DNA from: Salinicola corii
GTDB lineage: Bacteria; Pseudomonadota; Gammaproteobacteria; Pseudomonadales; Halomonadaceae
Assembly (NCBI RefSeq): GCF_008298015.1
Contig: NZ_VTPX01000014.1
Span: forward strand, 31,227 to 95,226
Length of the DNA: 64,000 bases
Reading direction: 5' to 3'
Shown here: piece after piece, positions 32,893 to 54,661 of the stretch
Numbering within the stretch: the stretch's first letter is position 1
Layout: every line of letters begins with the position of its first letter
Made by a program: the position numbers and the translations under genes
Notes under the pieces: model-generated
Told to the model about the DNA's origin: nothing
Database searches by the model: none
The model's input: only the letters and a program-made list of their open reading frames with translations

Positions 32893-34385
32893 CCCGCGGA
32901 CGCCAATGCCGGTGGCAAGCGGGCGAGGTCGCCACCGACCGCCTCGAAGGCGCGCGCCAGTTGCAGCACGCCCCAGTCATCCCGGGGCCTGCCGATCAGT
33001 TGAAAGCCCATCGGCAGGCCGCCGTCGTTGATGCCGGCCGGCAGGCTGATGGCCGGGGCGCCGAGCATCGAGGCGGGGATCACCACCTCCATCCAGCGAT
33101 GGTAGCTGTCCAGCGTGCGACCGGCGATCTCGCGGGGCCAGTGGGTCTCCACGTCGAACGGGAACACCTGGGCGCTGGGCATTGCCAGGTAGTCGAACCG
33201 CTCGAACAGCGCGCTCCAGGCTCGATAGGCGTCGCCACGCTGCACGTTGGCGGCGTGAATGTCCTGAGCCGAGAGTCGCAGGCCATGTTCGACCTCCCAC
33301 TGCGCTTCCGGCTTCAAGCGGTCGCGGGTCGCGGGGTCGGCGTAGTACGCGCCCAGTTTGCCGGCGACGGACCCGTGCCGCAGCGTCGTCCAACTTTGCC
33401 ACAGCACGTCCGGGTCGAACGGCATGTCGCCGACTTCGACCTGGGCGCCGAGTCCGACGAATCGATCCAACGCCGCTTCACACAACGCGAGGACGCCGGA
33501 CTCCATCGCCAGATGCCCGCCCCAGTCACCCAGCCAGCCGATCCTGAGGCCTTGAGCGTCGCGCTCGAGCGAGGTCCCGATATCGCGGGTGCCGCTCCGC
33601 AGCGGCTCACCCAGCGACAGTGGGACACGCGGGTCGAAGCCGGACTGGATCTCCAGCAGTCGCGCCACGTCCTCGACGGTTCGGCCCATCGGGCCGTTGG
33701 TGGCGAGCTGCTGGCCGAACGGGTCGGCGGCCAACTCCGGGACCCGCCCGAAGGAAGGCCGAAAGCCGATCACGTGATTGAAGGCGGCAGGATTGCGCAA
33801 CGAGCCCATCATGTCGCTGCCGTCGGCCACCGGCAGCATTCGCACGGCCAGGGCTGCCGCCGCGCCACCGCTGGAACCGCCTGCGGTGCGGGTGTGATCG
33901 AAGGCATTGCGGGTGGCGCCGAAGACCGGATTGTAGGATTGCGAGCCGAGGCCAAATTCAGGCGTGTTGGTCTTGCCGACGATGATGGCGCCGGCGGCTC
34001 GCATGCGTTCTACCATCAGACTGTCCTGGGTGGCCATCTGACCGGCAAGCAGCGGCGAACCCTGCGTCGTTGGCAGGCCCGCCGCATCCGACAGATCCTT
34101 GATCGCCTGCGGGAAGCCGTGCATCCAGCCCCGCGAGCGACCGGCCGAGAGTTCCCTGTCGGCGGCGTCGGCCTCGGCGAGCAGTGCTGCCCGCTCGCGC
34201 CGCGAGACGATGGCGTTGACCAGCGGATTGGCAGCGTCGATATGGTCGAGGTAGGCGCTCATCACCTCCCGGCAGGAGACGGCGCGATCGTGAAGCTGCC
34301 GCGACAGCGTGGTGGCATCCCAGGTCACGATCTCGGTCAGGGCGAGCGCCGGCGCGGCGCGATTCGAATCGGAAAGCGGTGTCAT
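32889..34385 (-). CDS. Amidase signature family hydrolase
   Basis: A 498-residue amidase. The Ser-cisSer-Lys triad is visible: Lys96 in FPQAIKDLSDAAG, Ser171 in the GGSSGG motif, and the nucleophile Ser195 in VADGSDMMGSLRNPA. It releases ammonia or an amine from an amide; the substrate cannot be read from sequence. The start at 34385 gives a normal N-terminus, but no purine-rich ribosome site precedes it. Instead AACAACAA lies 12 bases upstream, where Hfq could compete with ribosomes. An in-frame ATG at 34421 is the alternative start. It lies downstream of acdS on the same strand. Confidence 0.9.
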   Translation of the reverse strand: MTPLSDSNRAAPALALTEIVTWDATTLSRQLHDRAVSCREVMSAYLDHIDAANPLVNAIVSRRERAALLAEADAADRELSAGRSRGWMHGFPQAIKDLSDAAGLPTTQGSPLLAGQMATQDSLMVERMRAAGAIIVGKTNTPEFGLGSQSYNPVFGATRNAFDHTRTAGGSSGGAAAALAVRMLPVADGSDMMGSLRNPAAFNHVIGFRPSFGRVPELAADPFGQQLATNGPMGRTVEDVARLLEIQSGFDPRVPLSLGEPLRSGTRDIGTSLERDAQGLRIGWLGDWGGHLAMESGVLALCEAALDRFVGLGAQVEVGDMPFDPDVLWQSWTTLRHGSVAGKLGAYYADPATRDRLKPEAQWEVEHGLRLSAQDIHAANVQRGDAYRAWSALFERFDYLAMPSAQVFPFDVETHWPREIAGRTLDSYHRWMEVVIPASMLGAPAISLPAGINDGGLPMGFQLIGRPRDDWGVLQLARAFEAVGGDLARLPPALASAG

Positions 34386-34396
34386 GAGGGGAGAGC

Positions 34397-34404
34397 TTGT
34401 TGTT
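34397..34404 (-). promoter_or_regulatory. Candidate Hfq/Crc catabolite-repression motif before the amidase
   Basis: AACAACAA on the minus strand begins 19 bases and ends 12 bases before the amidase ATG. It matches the AAnAAnAA pattern bound by Hfq with Crc in Pseudomonas catabolic mRNAs, and it fits the (CAA)n blocks of the RNA at 52842-53331. If the upstream start at 34421 is the real one, it lies inside the early coding region, which is also a known target position. Confidence 0.4.
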
Positions 34405-50731: not shown

Positions 50732-51229
50732 TCACGCCGGCAGACGGTGCAGCGTTTGGTCCTTCAGCCTGTTTGCCAGACTCCCCGGCAGCTCGCCGCC
50801 GAGGGAGAGCGTCGGCGCGATTTCAGCCAGGGGTTCCAGCACGAATCGGCGATGCATCATCTCCGGATGGGGCAGGGTGAGACGAGGGGAGTGGCAAGTG
50901 AGGCCCGCGTACCACAGCAGGTCCAGATCCAGCGTCCGGGGCCCCCAGTGGCGATGCCGCACACGGCGATGGCGCTGCTCGATCGCCTGGAGCTGGTCGA
51001 GCAGCGCCAGCGGCGAGAGTCGAGTGCGCACGGCGACGACGGCGTTGACGAAATCGGGTTGATCCTGGAGGCCGACCGGAGCGCTGGCGTAGAGAGAGGA
51101 GACGGCAACGCGCTCGCTCACCGGTAGCGAGGCCAGTGCCGACACTGCCCGCGCCAGTTGGTCACGGGGCGACTCCAGGTTGCTGCCCAGGCCGACATAG
51201 GCCAGGGCGAAGCGTCGGTGGTCAGTCAT
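50732..51229 (-). CDS. folK: 2-amino-4-hydroxy-6-hydroxymethyldihydropteridine pyrophosphokinase
   Basis: A 165-residue HPPK of folate synthesis. It begins FALAYVGLGSNLESPRDQL, and the signature RHWGPRTLDLDLLWYAG carries the two magnesium-binding aspartates, followed by LPHPEMMHRRFVLEPLAEIAP. The start at 51229 overlaps the end of pcnB by eight bases, which supports this start over a longer reading frame. The order pcnB-folK-panB is widespread in Gammaproteobacteria. Confidence 0.96.
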   Translation of the reverse strand: MTDHRRFALAYVGLGSNLESPRDQLARAVSALASLPVSERVAVSSLYASAPVGLQDQPDFVNAVVAVRTRLSPLALLDQLQAIEQRHRRVRHRHWGPRTLDLDLLWYAGLTCHSPRLTLPHPEMMHRRFVLEPLAEIAPTLSLGGELPGSLANRLKDQTLHRLPA

Positions 51230-52661
51230 CCAGCGTCGGCGGTGTCGGCTTGTTGGTCGGCCGCCGACGCTTGCGCGGGCGTCGACGGCGGGGTTTGGGA
51301 CTCGTTCCCGCCGGATTGCCGTTGCCGCCGCCGGTGTCGTTGGCGAGTAGCTGGCGCTGCCCCTCCTCGTCCGCCTGCTGGAATTCGGTCCACCAGGCAC
51401 CCAGGCCTGGGGCCAGCTCGCCGGCTTCCTCGCGCAGCAGCAGGAAGTCGTAGGCGGCGCGGAAACGCGGATGTTCCAGTGTCTGGAACACCCGACGGCC
51501 GCGTCGGCGCGGGAGTTGCTGCTGAAGATCCCAGATCTCGCGCATCGGGATGCTGAAGCGCTTTGGGATCGAGGTATGTTGCAACTGACGACTGATGACC
51601 TGCTGCGCGGCGGCCTGCTGAGCCGGGACGTCCGGCAGGTCCTGCTCGTGGGCGATGCGCGGAGTGCGCTGCTGGACGCAGGGCCACAGCAGGGCGCCAA
51701 ACAGGAAGGCAGGCGTGACCGGCCGATCCTGGGCGATCCGCGCATCGGTGTTGGTCAGCGCCTGCTCGACCAGCTTGACCGCCCAAGGATGCTCGTCGAG
51801 GACTTCGTCGCTCTCGGGGAACAGCATCGCGAACAGGCCATGATCACGCAGCACCCGGAAGCTCTGCAGCGCGTGCCCGGAGAGGAACAGCTTGAGCACT
51901 TCCTCGAACAGCCTCGCCGGCGGGATCTGCAGTAGCAGCGGTGCCAACTCGCGAATCGGTGCCTCGGTACCTTCGGCAATCCGGAAGTCGAGCTTGGCGG
52001 CGAAACGCGCGGCGCGCAGCATGCGCACCGGATCCTCGCGATAACGGGTTTCCGGATCGCCGATCAGGCGGAGCACGCGATCGTCCAGGTCCTGGAGACC
52101 GCCGGTCCAGTCATGGATGGCGAAGTCGGTTACGCTGTAATAGAGCGCGTTGACGGTGAAGTCGCGACGAATCGCGTCCTCTTCGACGCTACCCCAGACG
52201 TTGTCGCGCAGCAGCAGGCCTTCGTCCGACTGCTGGCTGTGATTGCCCGTGTGCTCCTCGCCATGCCGTCCGCGAAAGGTCGTGACCTCGATCACCTCGC
52301 GCCCGAAGCGGACGTGAACGATGCGGAAGCGCCGGCCGATGATCCGGGAGTTGCGAAATAGCTGACGTACTTCGTCCGGTGTTGCGTTGGTGGCGACATC
52401 GAAATCCTTGGGCCGGTTGCCGAGCAGGGAGTCCCGAATGCAACCACCGACCAGATAAGCGTCGTAGCCGGCGCCATTGAGTCGATACAATACCTTGAGA
52501 GCGCTTTCGCTGAGGTTCTGACGCGAGACGTTGTGTTCGTCGCGAGGAAGGACTTGACGGGTGGTCGTGGTGTCTTCGGCCGCTTGAGCGGATTCCGGGC
52601 CGAAGAAAGTCTTCAAACGTTCACCGGGACGTTGGAGGAAACGGGAAAATCCTTTGAACAT
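51222..52661 (-). CDS. pcnB: Poly(A) polymerase I
   Basis: A 479-residue class II nucleotidyltransferase that adds A tails to RNA 3' ends and promotes decay. The catalytic signature is YLVGGCIRDSLLGNRPKDFDVAT with Asp86 and Asp88. RRDFTVNALYY and DPVRMLRAARFAAKLDF are further family blocks. The C-terminal 40 residues are very basic (KPRRRRPRKRRRPTNK), as is common for PcnB. The ATG at 52661 lies about 180 bases downstream of the end of the CrcZ-like RNA. Confidence 0.97.
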   Translation of the reverse strand: MFKGFSRFLQRPGERLKTFFGPESAQAAEDTTTTRQVLPRDEHNVSRQNLSESALKVLYRLNGAGYDAYLVGGCIRDSLLGNRPKDFDVATNATPDEVRQLFRNSRIIGRRFRIVHVRFGREVIEVTTFRGRHGEEHTGNHSQQSDEGLLLRDNVWGSVEEDAIRRDFTVNALYYSVTDFAIHDWTGGLQDLDDRVLRLIGDPETRYREDPVRMLRAARFAAKLDFRIAEGTEAPIRELAPLLLQIPPARLFEEVLKLFLSGHALQSFRVLRDHGLFAMLFPESDEVLDEHPWAVKLVEQALTNTDARIAQDRPVTPAFLFGALLWPCVQQRTPRIAHEQDLPDVPAQQAAAQQVISRQLQHTSIPKRFSIPMREIWDLQQQLPRRRGRRVFQTLEHPRFRAAYDFLLLREEAGELAPGLGAWWTEFQQADEEGQRQLLANDTGGGNGNPAGTSPKPRRRRPRKRRRPTNKPTPPTLDD

Positions 52662-52841
52662 GCGGCGAAATCGACTCGCGAGGTAGCAAAACTCCAGTGT
52701 AGCGGAGGCTAGAAGCCTTGCAAAGGCAATGGGGAATGAGAGGAGGGTCTAAAGGCTCTGCACAGGCCTCGCCGTAGGCGGATCATGTCGGCATTCATCG
52801 TAGATTCTCACGATGGAACGAACGGGGTCGACGGGCATAGT

Positions 52842-52870
52842 AAAAGGGGAGACCCGATAGGCCTCCCCTT
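52842..52870 (-). terminator. Terminator hairpin of the CrcZ-like RNA
   Basis: On the minus strand AAGGGGAG pairs with CTCCCCTT, extended by G-U and two G-C pairs to 11 pairs with a 5-base loop, followed by TTTT. It lies 180 bases before the pcnB start and ends the transcript predicted from the sigma-54 promoter. Confidence 0.65.
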
Positions 52871-53048
52871 GCAAGGATGCTTCGCAACGTCCATGCCGCT
52901 TCTTCTTGTTCGTGATGGCGCATCGCCTTGAATACGCACCACAGTCGCTGAACGAGCGTGCAGTCACTGGCTTGTCGTTATCAGCCATACTGTGCGTAGC
53001 GACCACCTCGTATTCAAAACAATAATCCAACCACGACAGGCAATGCCC

Positions 53049-53078
53049 CTTCTCGGTTGTTGTCATTGTTCCGAGAAG
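53049..53078 (-). other. Hairpin presenting a CAA motif in its loop, within the small RNA
   Basis: CTTCTCGG (53049-53056) is exactly complementary to CCGAGAAG (53071-53078). On the minus strand the 14-base loop reads AACAATGACAACAA, a single-stranded A-rich site of the kind bound by the Hfq distal face. Confidence 0.6.
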
Positions 53079-53341
53079 TCTCCAGGTCACGAGGAAGCTT
53101 GTTGTTGTTGCCTCGTTGATGAAGAGCGTCGCGTCCTGATTTTGCGTCGGCTCGAGAACGATTGTTGTTGTTCGTGTCCTCGTTCGCCCTTGGCCAGTGT
53201 TGTTGTTGTGGGCCGGTGGCGATCTGCCTTCCTAGGTTGAGTGCCGTCTTGTTGTTGTTGTCGGCATTGGGAGTTATCCGATCCCTCTTGTTGTTGTTGG
53301 GCTTTATCGGTACCCGCTGTTGTTTTTCTTGTCTTAGTTAC

Positions 53342-53357
53342 AGCACGTGTCGTGCCA
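53342..53357 (-). promoter_or_regulatory. Sigma-54 (RpoN) promoter, -24/-12 element
   Basis: The minus strand reads TGGCACG-N4-GTGCT, compared with the consensus TGGCACG-N4-TTGCW: one mismatch, with the essential GG and GC at correct spacing. It is placed about 10 bases before the first CAA block. An IHF site and a dyad lie upstream in the order expected for an enhancer-dependent promoter. Confidence 0.8.
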
Positions 53358-53377
53358 CTCCTTGTTTTTTTAAACAA

Positions 53378-53390
53378 AATCAATTATTTG
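53378..53390. promoter_or_regulatory. Consensus IHF-binding site
   Basis: AATCAATTATTTG on the plus strand fits the consensus WATCAANNNNTTR at every position. It lies between the 12-bp dyad and the sigma-54 element, where IHF bending would bring an enhancer-bound activator to the polymerase. Confidence 0.65.
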
Positions 53391-53401
53391 TGCTTGTCTG
53401 T

Positions 53402-53433
53402 CCATGCTGGTCGTCGTATGGCGACCAGCATGG
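53402..53433. promoter_or_regulatory. 12-bp perfect dyad, candidate enhancer site for the sigma-54 activator
   Basis: CCATGCTGGTCG (53402-53413) and its exact complement (53422-53433) are separated by 8 bases and centred about 86 bases before the predicted transcription start. The position suits an NtrC-type activator such as CbrB, but the sequence does not match a site I know. It could instead be a terminator for gluQ, though no U-run follows on the minus strand. Confidence 0.5.
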
Positions 53434-53645
53434 AGGCACCCGGATGATTCATAAGGGGGCATCTGCAGCGGATCATGCGTAATTGTGGTGCGCCCCTTCT
53501 GCGCAATGGCGACAGGGTGGCGCAAAACGGCGCGAGTTTCGCTTAGACAATAGTCTTCAATCGAAGGGAGAAGCGGTTTCGGCGGCGCGGAATGGCGCGC
53601 TTCGAACGTCAGGCAGGCGGCGGCGATAAACCTTGCAGAAGGGCC
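53434..53645. other. Remaining gap between gluQ and the sigma-54 control region
   Basis: These 212 bases after the gluQ stop hold no credible coding sequence on either strand. Several short GCGC-rich inverted motifs occur (for example TGCGCC and GGCGCA around 53490-53525), but I see no clear site. In Pseudomonas cbrA and cbrB would be between gluQ and the small RNA; here nothing of them remains. Confidence 0.6.
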
Positions 53646-54548
53646 TCAATCCGGCCGTCGACCCGGGATCGCGGTCATCGCAAGGGGGGACCAATGCTCG
53701 AGAGCGTGTGCCAATTGAGTGGATACGTCGGCCTGGCGTAGCGTGGGAGATGGCGCCTGACCCAGCAGTTTCAGCGCCTGATGGAGTACCGGTCGAGCCA
53801 GAGTGCCATCGTGGGGAATGGCGGTCGCGAGATTCTGTTTGGACAGCTTCTGGCCATCCTCGCCCAGGATCAGCGGCAGATGCAGGTAGCGCGGCTCAGG
53901 ATAGTTCAGTGCGACCTGGAGCTGTCGCTGCCAGGGGGTATTGTCGAGCAGGTCGAAGCCGCGAACCACATCGGTGATGCCCTGCTTCGCATCATCGACC
54001 ACCACCGCGAGCTGATAGGCCCAGAGGCCATCCTTGCGCTTGATGACCACGTCGCCCTGGGTGGTCGGGTCCAGGCATTGGCTCCCGAACAGGCGATCTT
54101 GCCAGCACACCGGCTGGATGCCCTTGTCGGTCCTCATTCGCCAGGCCTGGGCGCGCCCGGGGTGAAGTGGGCCATGGCGGCACCAGCCGGGGTAATGGCC
54201 ATGCTGCTGCCACTCGCGCCGCGAGCAGCCACAGGGATAGGCCATTCGGTCGGCGATCAGACGGTCCAGCGCCGCCTGGTAGGACGCTCCACGGGAGCTC
54301 TGATGGAGGATCTCCCCATCCCACTCCAGGCCGAACGCTTCCAACTGGCGGCGAATCCAGTCGACGGCGTCTGGAGGGCAGCGTGGCGGATCGATGTCCT
54401 CGATGCGCAGCAGCCAATGGCCGCCGGCTGCTCTGGCATCCAGCCAACTGCCCAGCGCCGCCACCAGGGAACCCAGGTGGAGCGGGCCGGAGGGCGTAGG
54501 CGCGAAACGGCCGATATAGCCCGACGTAGATGGCGGAGCAGTGGTCAT
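53646..54548 (-). CDS. gluQ: Glutamyl-Q tRNA(Asp) synthetase
   Basis: A 300-residue truncated GluRS-like enzyme that attaches glutamate to the queuosine base of tRNA(Asp). The class I motif is FAPTPSGPLHLGSLVAALGSWLDA, and the KMSKS equivalent is LSKQN. Zinc ligands are in YPCGCSRREW and a later Cys. It lacks the anticodon-binding domain, as expected. The start at 54548 fits the family N-terminus; longer in-frame starts reach toward dksA. It lies downstream of dksA on the same strand, as in Pseudomonas. Confidence 0.95.
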   Translation of the reverse strand: MTTAPPSTSGYIGRFAPTPSGPLHLGSLVAALGSWLDARAAGGHWLLRIEDIDPPRCPPDAVDWIRRQLEAFGLEWDGEILHQSSRGASYQAALDRLIADRMAYPCGCSRREWQQHGHYPGWCRHGPLHPGRAQAWRMRTDKGIQPVCWQDRLFGSQCLDPTTQGDVVIKRKDGLWAYQLAVVVDDAKQGITDVVRGFDLLDNTPWQRQLQVALNYPEPRYLHLPLILGEDGQKLSKQNLATAIPHDGTLARPVLHQALKLLGQAPSPTLRQADVSTQLAHALEHWSPLAMTAIPGRRPD

Positions 54549-54661
54549 GAGGCGGCTCGTTACGTGGGATATGGCAGTGCCGAGTGCCGCGAGGATAGCG
54601 CGAAACGCAAGACGGACACCGATCAAGGTGCCCGTCGTGTATCTACGGCAACCGAAGCCGT

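Follow-up and report, generated by a model that had tools for sequence, protein, structure and literature searches.

A predicted sigma54-dependent, CrcZ-type RNA upstream of pcnB in Salinicola corii, with NtrC rather than CbrB as candidate activator

Introduction

What does the 984-bp gap between gluQ and pcnB of Salinicola corii encode, and which activator would switch it on? On the minus strand, an IHF-type site and a sigma54 box precede six (CAA)n blocks, which are followed by a terminator. The CrcZ RNA of Pseudomonas aeruginosa measures 407 nt and carries six A-rich stretches able to bind the distal face of Hfq (excerpts of PMC4063720), and the CbrAB system has been described as exclusive to the Pseudomonadaceae, in Pseudomonas and Azotobacter (excerpts of PMC8871633 and PMC6296734). 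No report of CrcZ or CbrAB in any halomonad was found in the available portions of the literature searched (open-licence papers). In a deep-sea metatranscriptome, cbrAB transcripts were recorded in communities including Halomonas, their host being left unassigned (excerpts of PMC5073097).

An original prediction, made from the letters of this DNA, proposed a CrcZ-like decoy RNA outside Pseudomonas. Synteny, promoter elements, CAA blocks and the presence of Crc and Hfq lend this proposal good support at the level of sequence. Our analysis suggests that the gap probably encodes a sigma54-dependent RNA of ~490 nt, likely a CrcZ-type Hfq/Crc decoy, which is predicted to be activated by NtrC and not by CbrB.

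Results

Layout of the gluQ-pcnB gap

The window is the whole 64,000-nt stretch of S. corii DNA that was analysed (contig NZ_VTPX01000014.1, positions 31,227 to 95,226), and the coordinates below are positions within it. The 5' end of the predicted RNA was set 27 nt past the first base of the sigma54 box, and its 3' end at the T-run of the terminator.

53646..54626, minus strand: gluQ, upstream neighbour
53542..53555, minus strand: conserved element X, GACTATTGTCTAAG
53476..53492, minus strand: putative NtrC-type site A, CGCACCACAATTACGCA, at -135 from the box and 31 bp from site B
53445..53461, minus strand: putative NtrC-type site B, TGCCCCCTTATGAATCA, at -104 from the box
53401..53434, strand-neutral: perfect 13-8-13 dyad, not conserved in the genus
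53378..53390, minus strand: IHF-type site CAAATAATTGATT, exact, 33 bp upstream of the box start
53342..53357, minus strand: sigma54 -24/-12 element TGGCACGACACGTGCT, box in 18/18 genus genomes
52841..53330, minus strand: predicted CrcZ-type RNA of ~490 nt (sequence-based prediction)
53278..53310, minus strand: CAA-loop hairpin 1
53242..53266, minus strand: CAA-loop hairpin 2
53192..53214, minus strand: CAA-loop hairpin 3
53153..53182, minus strand: CAA-loop hairpin 4
53089..53116, minus strand: CAA-loop hairpin 5
53049..53078, minus strand: CAA-loop hairpin 6
52884..53047, minus strand: 3' domain, two nearly invariant strands (53047-53000 and 52946-52884) able to pair as a long helix
52842..52868, minus strand: intrinsic terminator GGGGAG..CTCCCC + TTTT (6 pairs, paired in 100% of cells; double changes at 3 of them)
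51222..52661, minus strand: pcnB, downstream neighbour

The minus-strand elements announced in the original prediction are all present in the sequence, including the exact IHF consensus (53390-53378), the near-exact -24/-12 element (53357-53342) and the terminator, a GGGGAG..CTCCCC stem with TTTT (52868-52842) that was absent from the output of a simple terminator scan. The five CAA blocks plus two partial ones listed there come close to our own count, which is six blocks with CAACAA, together with an A-rich stretch at the 5' end and AACAAGAAGAA on the 3' side. In relatives, cbrA-cbrB intervene between gluQ and the RNA locus. The nearest named pcnB loci are those of Salinicola salarius and S. 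rhizosphaerae.

A conserved putative sigma54 promoter in genomes without CbrB

A match to TGGCACN6TGCW is found a single time in the window, against 0.33 expected, and at least once in 29 of 100 shuffles. The sigma54 box by itself is therefore not rare, and the argument for it is its conservation: a box and CAA blocks lie upstream of pcnB in 18/18 genus genomes (S. corii and 17 others), so that the check for loss in close relatives, suggested along with the prediction, found these elements kept throughout. In one of these genomes (G017, locus L111) the pcnB match is in several pieces, one of them with four in-frame TGA codons; the upstream box and CAA blocks are present.

At E<=1e-100, CbrB was found in 164/201 genomes of the family, leaving 37/201 without it, and in 0/18 genus genomes. 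Matched with Pseudomonas CbrB, the five strong enhancer-binding proteins (EBPs) of S. corii score 220-295 bits, whereas halomonad CbrBs score 532-593. A box followed by CAA blocks is retained in 37/37 of the CbrB-less family genomes. Nineteen of these lie outside the genus (from six other genera, plus a single species or strain of a genus that is otherwise CbrB+) and were assigned by exclusion from the CbrB match list, 17 of them being unlisted there; their box agrees at 9-11 of 12 positions.

CbrB subsites (TGTTAC; GTAACA, GTAACG or GGTAAC) occupy almost constant positions in 41/41 CbrB+ loci sampled, a set made up of 11 named loci and the best 30 of 164 family genomes, in which L020 and L124 are probably one species. 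Both subsite types occur in all 41 of them, versus 1/36 CbrB- loci, any one type being found in 5/36 of the latter; the 17 genus loci scanned gave no TGTTAC/GTAAC-type subsite. These upstream statistics cover 36 of the 37 CbrB- loci, L095 having been left out (its contig stops 108 bases above the box), and the 36 are not independent, as they stand for 8 genera and about three CbrB losses. In a PcnB tree of 44 rows the CbrB state changes three times, at least two of the changes being forced by the starred branches, and most CbrB+ genera are off this tree. With CbrB in none of the 18 genus genomes and its subsites in none of the 17 genus loci, the control region, which had been called complete, is not of the CbrB type.

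In 29/36 CbrB- and 37/41 CbrB+ loci the best IHF-type match keeps the offset seen in S. corii, and a match with 0 or 1 mismatch, at any offset, was found in 22/36 and 30/41, respectively. The dyad (53434-53401) to which the prediction had drawn attention is indeed perfect in the window, and only there among the 18 genus loci: the closest relative has one arm and the other 16 neither. As an activator site it was ruled out, being not conserved across the genus. The conserved upstream feature of the genus loci is a pair of putative NtrC-type 17-mers, not the dyad.

A pair of NtrC-type sites with the spacing of the glnA promoter

The E. coli NtrC consensus is TGCACC-N5-GGTGCA. Upstream of the box, a GCACCA element is found in CbrB+ and CbrB- loci, mostly near -134; in the genus it forms the left half of a 17-mer, and a second 17-mer lies 31 bp off in 17/17 loci scanned. 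The glnA promoters of CbrB-less genomes (n = 28) contain a site with at least 9/12 consensus bases in 27/28 cases and a pair at a spacing of 29-33 in 27/28, the mean pair score peaking at 31 bp (18.0, vs 13.0-14.9 at the other spacings from 20 to 44). Sites for the glnA matrix were picked by their likeness to the E. coli consensus; 4 of the 26 distinct sites were dropped from the final matrix as off position, an earlier version having used all 26.

With the glnA matrix, the RNA promoters of the 36 CbrB- loci reach a pair score of 17.2, compared to -12.4 (sd 1.9, max -5.2) for 150 column-permuted matrices. For CbrB+ halomonad promoters the pair score is -1.7, compared to -13.9 (sd 1.8, max -6.1) for permuted ones, and the profile peaks at 31 bp in both classes. 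An NtrC-type pair scoring above 95% of shuffles is present in 28/41 CbrB+ halomonad loci sampled, and 0/18 out-of-family loci have one at or under 5% of shuffles. From Vreelandella-type CbrB+ loci the 17-mer pair is mostly missing.

The S. corii sites themselves have moderate scores, 10.1 for site A and 9.2 for site B (9.8 and 7.4 after the off-position training sites were dropped), yet the glnA matrix ranks them first and second among the upstream 17-mers of the window. By plain count each matches 8/12 bases of the E. coli consensus, the organism's own glnA site matching 10/12, and two other 17-mers upstream of the window's box match 9/12. Weak spots are genus g16, which averages a pair score of 1.0, and g18, which depends on one site. 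Genome-wide, the one-mismatch NtrC palindrome is not enriched (74 vs 73 in the control), and the NtrC argument thus rests on position, spacing and the glnA-derived matrix.

Candidate activators of the promoter

S. corii encodes five strong sigma54 activators: GlrR (L001), NtrC (L002), an AtoC-like response regulator (L003), a PAS-type and an AcoR-like protein, the last two named by eye, with scores short of all NCBIfam cut-offs shown. With 752 bits (vs 620), L002 passes the NtrC cut-offs, and the frame directly upstream of it resembles, by eye, a histidine kinase, a candidate NtrB. None of the five EBPs reaches the NorR cut-off of 476 bits (PAS-type 299.3, AcoR-like 257.5), and S. corii has no NorR. 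The inventory of relatives comprised 23 EBP loci, three of which are all those of G032; G034 has NtrC and NorR only, and G033 has NtrC, NorR and one unnamed activator. NtrC is the sole sigma54 activator common to all seven CbrB-less genomes inventoried, which, together with the site pair, points to it as the probable activator of the RNA. The hut operon of Pseudomonas, in which NtrC and CbrB sites overlap (excerpts of PMC8871633), offers a precedent for the two regulators on one promoter; NtrC control of crcZ is not mentioned in the portions available of PMC8871633, PMC11332353 and PMC6296734.

Another activator, GlrR or the AtoC-like L003, might drive the CrcZ-type decoy through element X or through an unrecognised site. 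Both proteins are encoded in S. corii, and element X (GACYATNGTCTAA), which could be bound by another activator or repressor, is conserved in many halomonad loci, where it precedes the sigma54 box by ~200 bp. However, these are CbrB+ as well as CbrB- loci, and the element was not found in the g16, g17 and g18 loci; GlrR is missing from G033 and G034, though both retain the locus, and it is the NtrC-type pair that shares the glnA spacing. We regard such a substitute for NtrC as unlikely. With CbrB and its subsites both gone, it may also be asked whether the sigma54 box is a relic and the RNA is constitutive or produced by read-through, as described for crcZ from the cbrB promoter in Pseudomonas (excerpts of PMC8871633). 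The retention of box and CAA blocks in each of the 37 CbrB-less genomes, the constant offset of the IHF-type match in 29 of 36 CbrB- loci and the result of a promoter scan, which found no sigma70-like promoter in 52600-53700, make this quite improbable. An NtrC-activated sigma54 promoter is the reading that we retain.

CAA blocks in the loops of covarying hairpins

The ~490-nt RNA contains 14 CAACAA, compared to 0.67 in dinucleotide shuffles (0/2000 as high). The RNA locus also accounts for 8 of the 9 CAACAACAA sites found in the window. Its six CAA blocks and two A-rich ends amount to at least five A-rich Hfq-type motifs, as in CrcZ. Alignment of the 18 RNAs revealed a variable 5' half made of the CAA-loop hairpins, then a nearly invariant 3' domain, followed by the terminator. 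On this 18-row alignment, 86.3% of cells pair in the proposed structure, versus 38-52% in slid controls, and both-sided changes affect 21/49 pairs, versus a shuffled mean of 13.1 (sd 1.9; 0/500 as high). The CAA blocks occupy the loops of hairpins with covarying stems. Further pair types showed no excess over shuffles (475/500 as high).

Helices 1-4 are paired in just 62-79% of cells, because their stems are shifted or missing in some lineages. The 9 counted pairs of the 3' helix do not vary, and therefore neither support nor contradict this helix. In a per-block flanking-stem test, 51% of 103 blocks came under 5% of shuffles; the structure claim is carried by the covariation counts. The stems are weaker in Pseudomonas and mostly missing in the single Gilvimarinus locus folded, indicating that hairpin display of CAA is not general. 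The 3' domain is present in the other halomonads checked, in Oceanospirillum and in Marinospirillum, and was not seen in three Pseudomonas loci, nor in the Marinobacter and Cellvibrio loci checked.

In the genus loci the region immediately precedes pcnB and has the same orientation, and it might in principle be a 5' leader of pcnB through which poly(A) polymerase is controlled, with no free decoy RNA. This is very improbable, given that a covarying terminator closes the RNA, that the box-to-pcnB distance varies from 630 to 950 bp and that a conserved stretch next to pcnB is promoter-like by eye, a stretch that the promoter scan did not list. A small Gln-rich protein, suggested by a 98-codon ORF covering most CAA blocks, can be practically dismissed: the coding reading was rejected because the longest frame changes in strand, phase and length from one of the 18 RNAs to another, some indels are not multiples of three and the stems show covariation.

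Hfq, Crc and candidate targets of the decoy

A CrcZ-type decoy, which remains our preferred reading of the RNA, would act on Hfq and Crc. The S. corii genome has one Hfq gene. The candidate Crc, L012, bears the NCBIfam label exodeoxyribonuclease III, and its best PDB match is an exodeoxyribonuclease III chain (2myi, 279 bits), closely followed by two chains of Catabolite repression control protein (4jg3, 276.8 bits; 4f1r, 275.8 bits) as second and third best. L012 is without the ETK, GDFN and SDH positions that are kept in the genome's own Xth (L010) and that we take to be catalytic in Xth. Judged by its sequence, L012 is the Crc orthologue. Crc is present in 202/202 family genomes.

A genome-wide search for AACAACAA-N1-22-ATG returned 48 matches, versus 14 for the reversed pattern; several of the 48 share one motif, one falls in the RNA itself, and the first 30 were annotated. 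Among these first 30, 7 distinct ORFs of ~300 codons or more start at the motif, with start codons assigned by hand, and 6 of them belong to uptake or catabolism; at most of the other places no long ORF begins at the motif. Two of the motif-linked ORFs scored above their cut-offs, that for the urate hydroxylase HpxO with 570.9 bits (cut-off 500) and that for an amidase with 723.9 bits (cut-off 465); the other five encode a PTS EIIA-HPr-EI protein, an MFS permease, two solute-binding proteins and a LysR regulator. Within the window, at ~34383-34404 on the minus strand, AACAACAAG precedes the start of an amidase gene, which is a candidate Hfq/Crc target.

The cbrB-RNA-pcnB order beyond Pseudomonas

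Fifty-six named loci out of 80 pcnB loci were examined and sorted by hand: 34 show, ahead of pcnB, a box and then CAA blocks, 20 do not, and 2 are on contigs that are too short. The 34 come from Salinicola, Halomonas, Vreelandella, Chromohalobacter, Litchfieldella, Oceanospirillum, Marinospirillum, Amphritea, Endozoicomonas arenosclerae, Marinobacter, Gilvimarinus, Aestuariicella, Cellvibrio, another Cellvibrionaceae MAG, Litorirhabdus, BD1-7 and Pseudomonas. The 20 loci without box and CAA blocks are mostly from Aeromonadales, Alteromonadales, Xanthomonadales, Methylococcales and Chromatiales, and include one Endozoicomonas and one Cellvibrionales MAG. Endozoicomonas SESOKO1 is without box and CAA blocks upstream of pcnB, whereas E. 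arenosclerae has both (L051 vs L056).

In 28 of the 34 loci cbrB is directly upstream, and cbrA precedes cbrB in all except Chromohalobacter; cbrA and cbrB are both missing at 4/34, all from the Salinicola group, and a contig ends at 2/34. At the Chromohalobacter marismortui locus (L019), cbrB stands without cbrA and apparently encodes, as far as this locus goes, an orphan CbrB. L089, from the BD1-7 clade, has two tandem sigma54 boxes, each with CAA blocks behind it, ~814 and 279 bp upstream of pcnB, possibly a CrcZ/CrcY-like pair at one locus.

Across the order, a CbrB match at E<=1e-110 was obtained in 321/390 genomes and 117/142 genera, of which the weakest (e.g. those of family f27, ~1e-112 to 1e-125) could be paralogues. 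Several families of the order outside the Pseudomonadaceae show the cbrB-RNA-pcnB arrangement, contrary to the exclusivity stated in the excerpts of PMC8871633.

Discussion

We propose that nitrogen limitation would bring phosphorylated NtrC onto two 17-bp sites 31 bp apart (53492-53445), and that IHF would bend the DNA so that NtrC reaches sigma54-RNA polymerase at 53357-53342. The CAA loops of the RNA would take up Hfq, through its distal face, together with Crc, and this uptake would release mRNAs with CAA motifs at their ribosome-binding sites. Candidates for release are the transcripts that encode the urate hydroxylase, the amidase, a PTS and proteins for the uptake of solutes.

As to its history, we lean towards a scenario in which a decoy RNA of the Pseudomonadales acquired NtrC sites within the halomonads, and CbrB was then lost in at least two or three lineages, including Salinicola, so that CrcZ would report nitrogen rather than carbon starvation to Hfq/Crc. 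Control of the decoy appears to have been handed over from carbon (CbrAB) to nitrogen (NtrBC). The CbrB-less halomonads would represent a natural experiment, in which the decoy RNA is retained with a different sensor in front. If NtrC drives the RNA, a need for nitrogen would lift the carbon catabolite repression of these halophiles, which are used in industry. The carbon/nitrogen wiring of Hfq/Crc would then be testable in CbrB+ Halomonas, whose promoters have NtrC-type and CbrB sites interleaved.

Several known systems can be set beside the Salinicola locus. GlmY and GlmZ of enterobacteria are sRNAs whose sigma54 promoters respond to an enhancer-binding protein and IHF, and the Salinicola RNA would resemble them in standing behind a promoter of this kind. 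In contrast to it, GlmY and GlmZ are base-pairing and RapZ-binding RNAs, stand under GlrR and have no CAA motifs. The glnA promoter, in S. corii itself and in 27 CbrB-less relatives, shares with the RNA promoter a sigma54 box and a TGCACC-N5-GGTGCA-type pair 31 bp apart; unlike it, the glnA promoter precedes glutamine synthetase, and its sites are for the most part better matches, placed ~40 bp farther away from the box.

The cbrB-RNA-pcnB loci of Halomonas, Vreelandella, Oceanospirillum, Marinobacter and Cellvibrio have the same place, the same box and CAA blocks as the Salinicola locus. Unlike the latter they keep cbrB, and the halomonads among them also keep the CbrB subsites.

The closest comparison is with CrcZ of Pseudomonas (RF01675). 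Like CrcZ, the Salinicola RNA adjoins pcnB, has a sigma54 promoter with an IHF-type site and carries several AANAANAA motifs, and Crc and Hfq are encoded in the same genome. Against the RF01675 covariance model, however, it scores 15.6 bits where the gathering threshold is 95 (E 0.084), and it reached no Rfam family at gathering, which bears out the suspicion, voiced with the prediction, that homology searches may miss this RNA. We have not filed it under RF01675, because on testing its Rfam score fell short of that threshold and CbrB control was not found. Unlike Pseudomonas CrcZ, Salinicola is without CbrB and CbrB subsites and has an NtrC-type site pair instead; its CAA blocks sit in covarying hairpins, and there is an extra conserved 3' domain. 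No description of the structure of the CrcZ loops was found in the available portions of the literature searched. Taken together, the Salinicola RNA likely acts as a CrcZ-type Hfq/Crc decoy and, by synteny, is most likely a CrcZ orthologue whose switch has changed and to which a 3' domain has been added.
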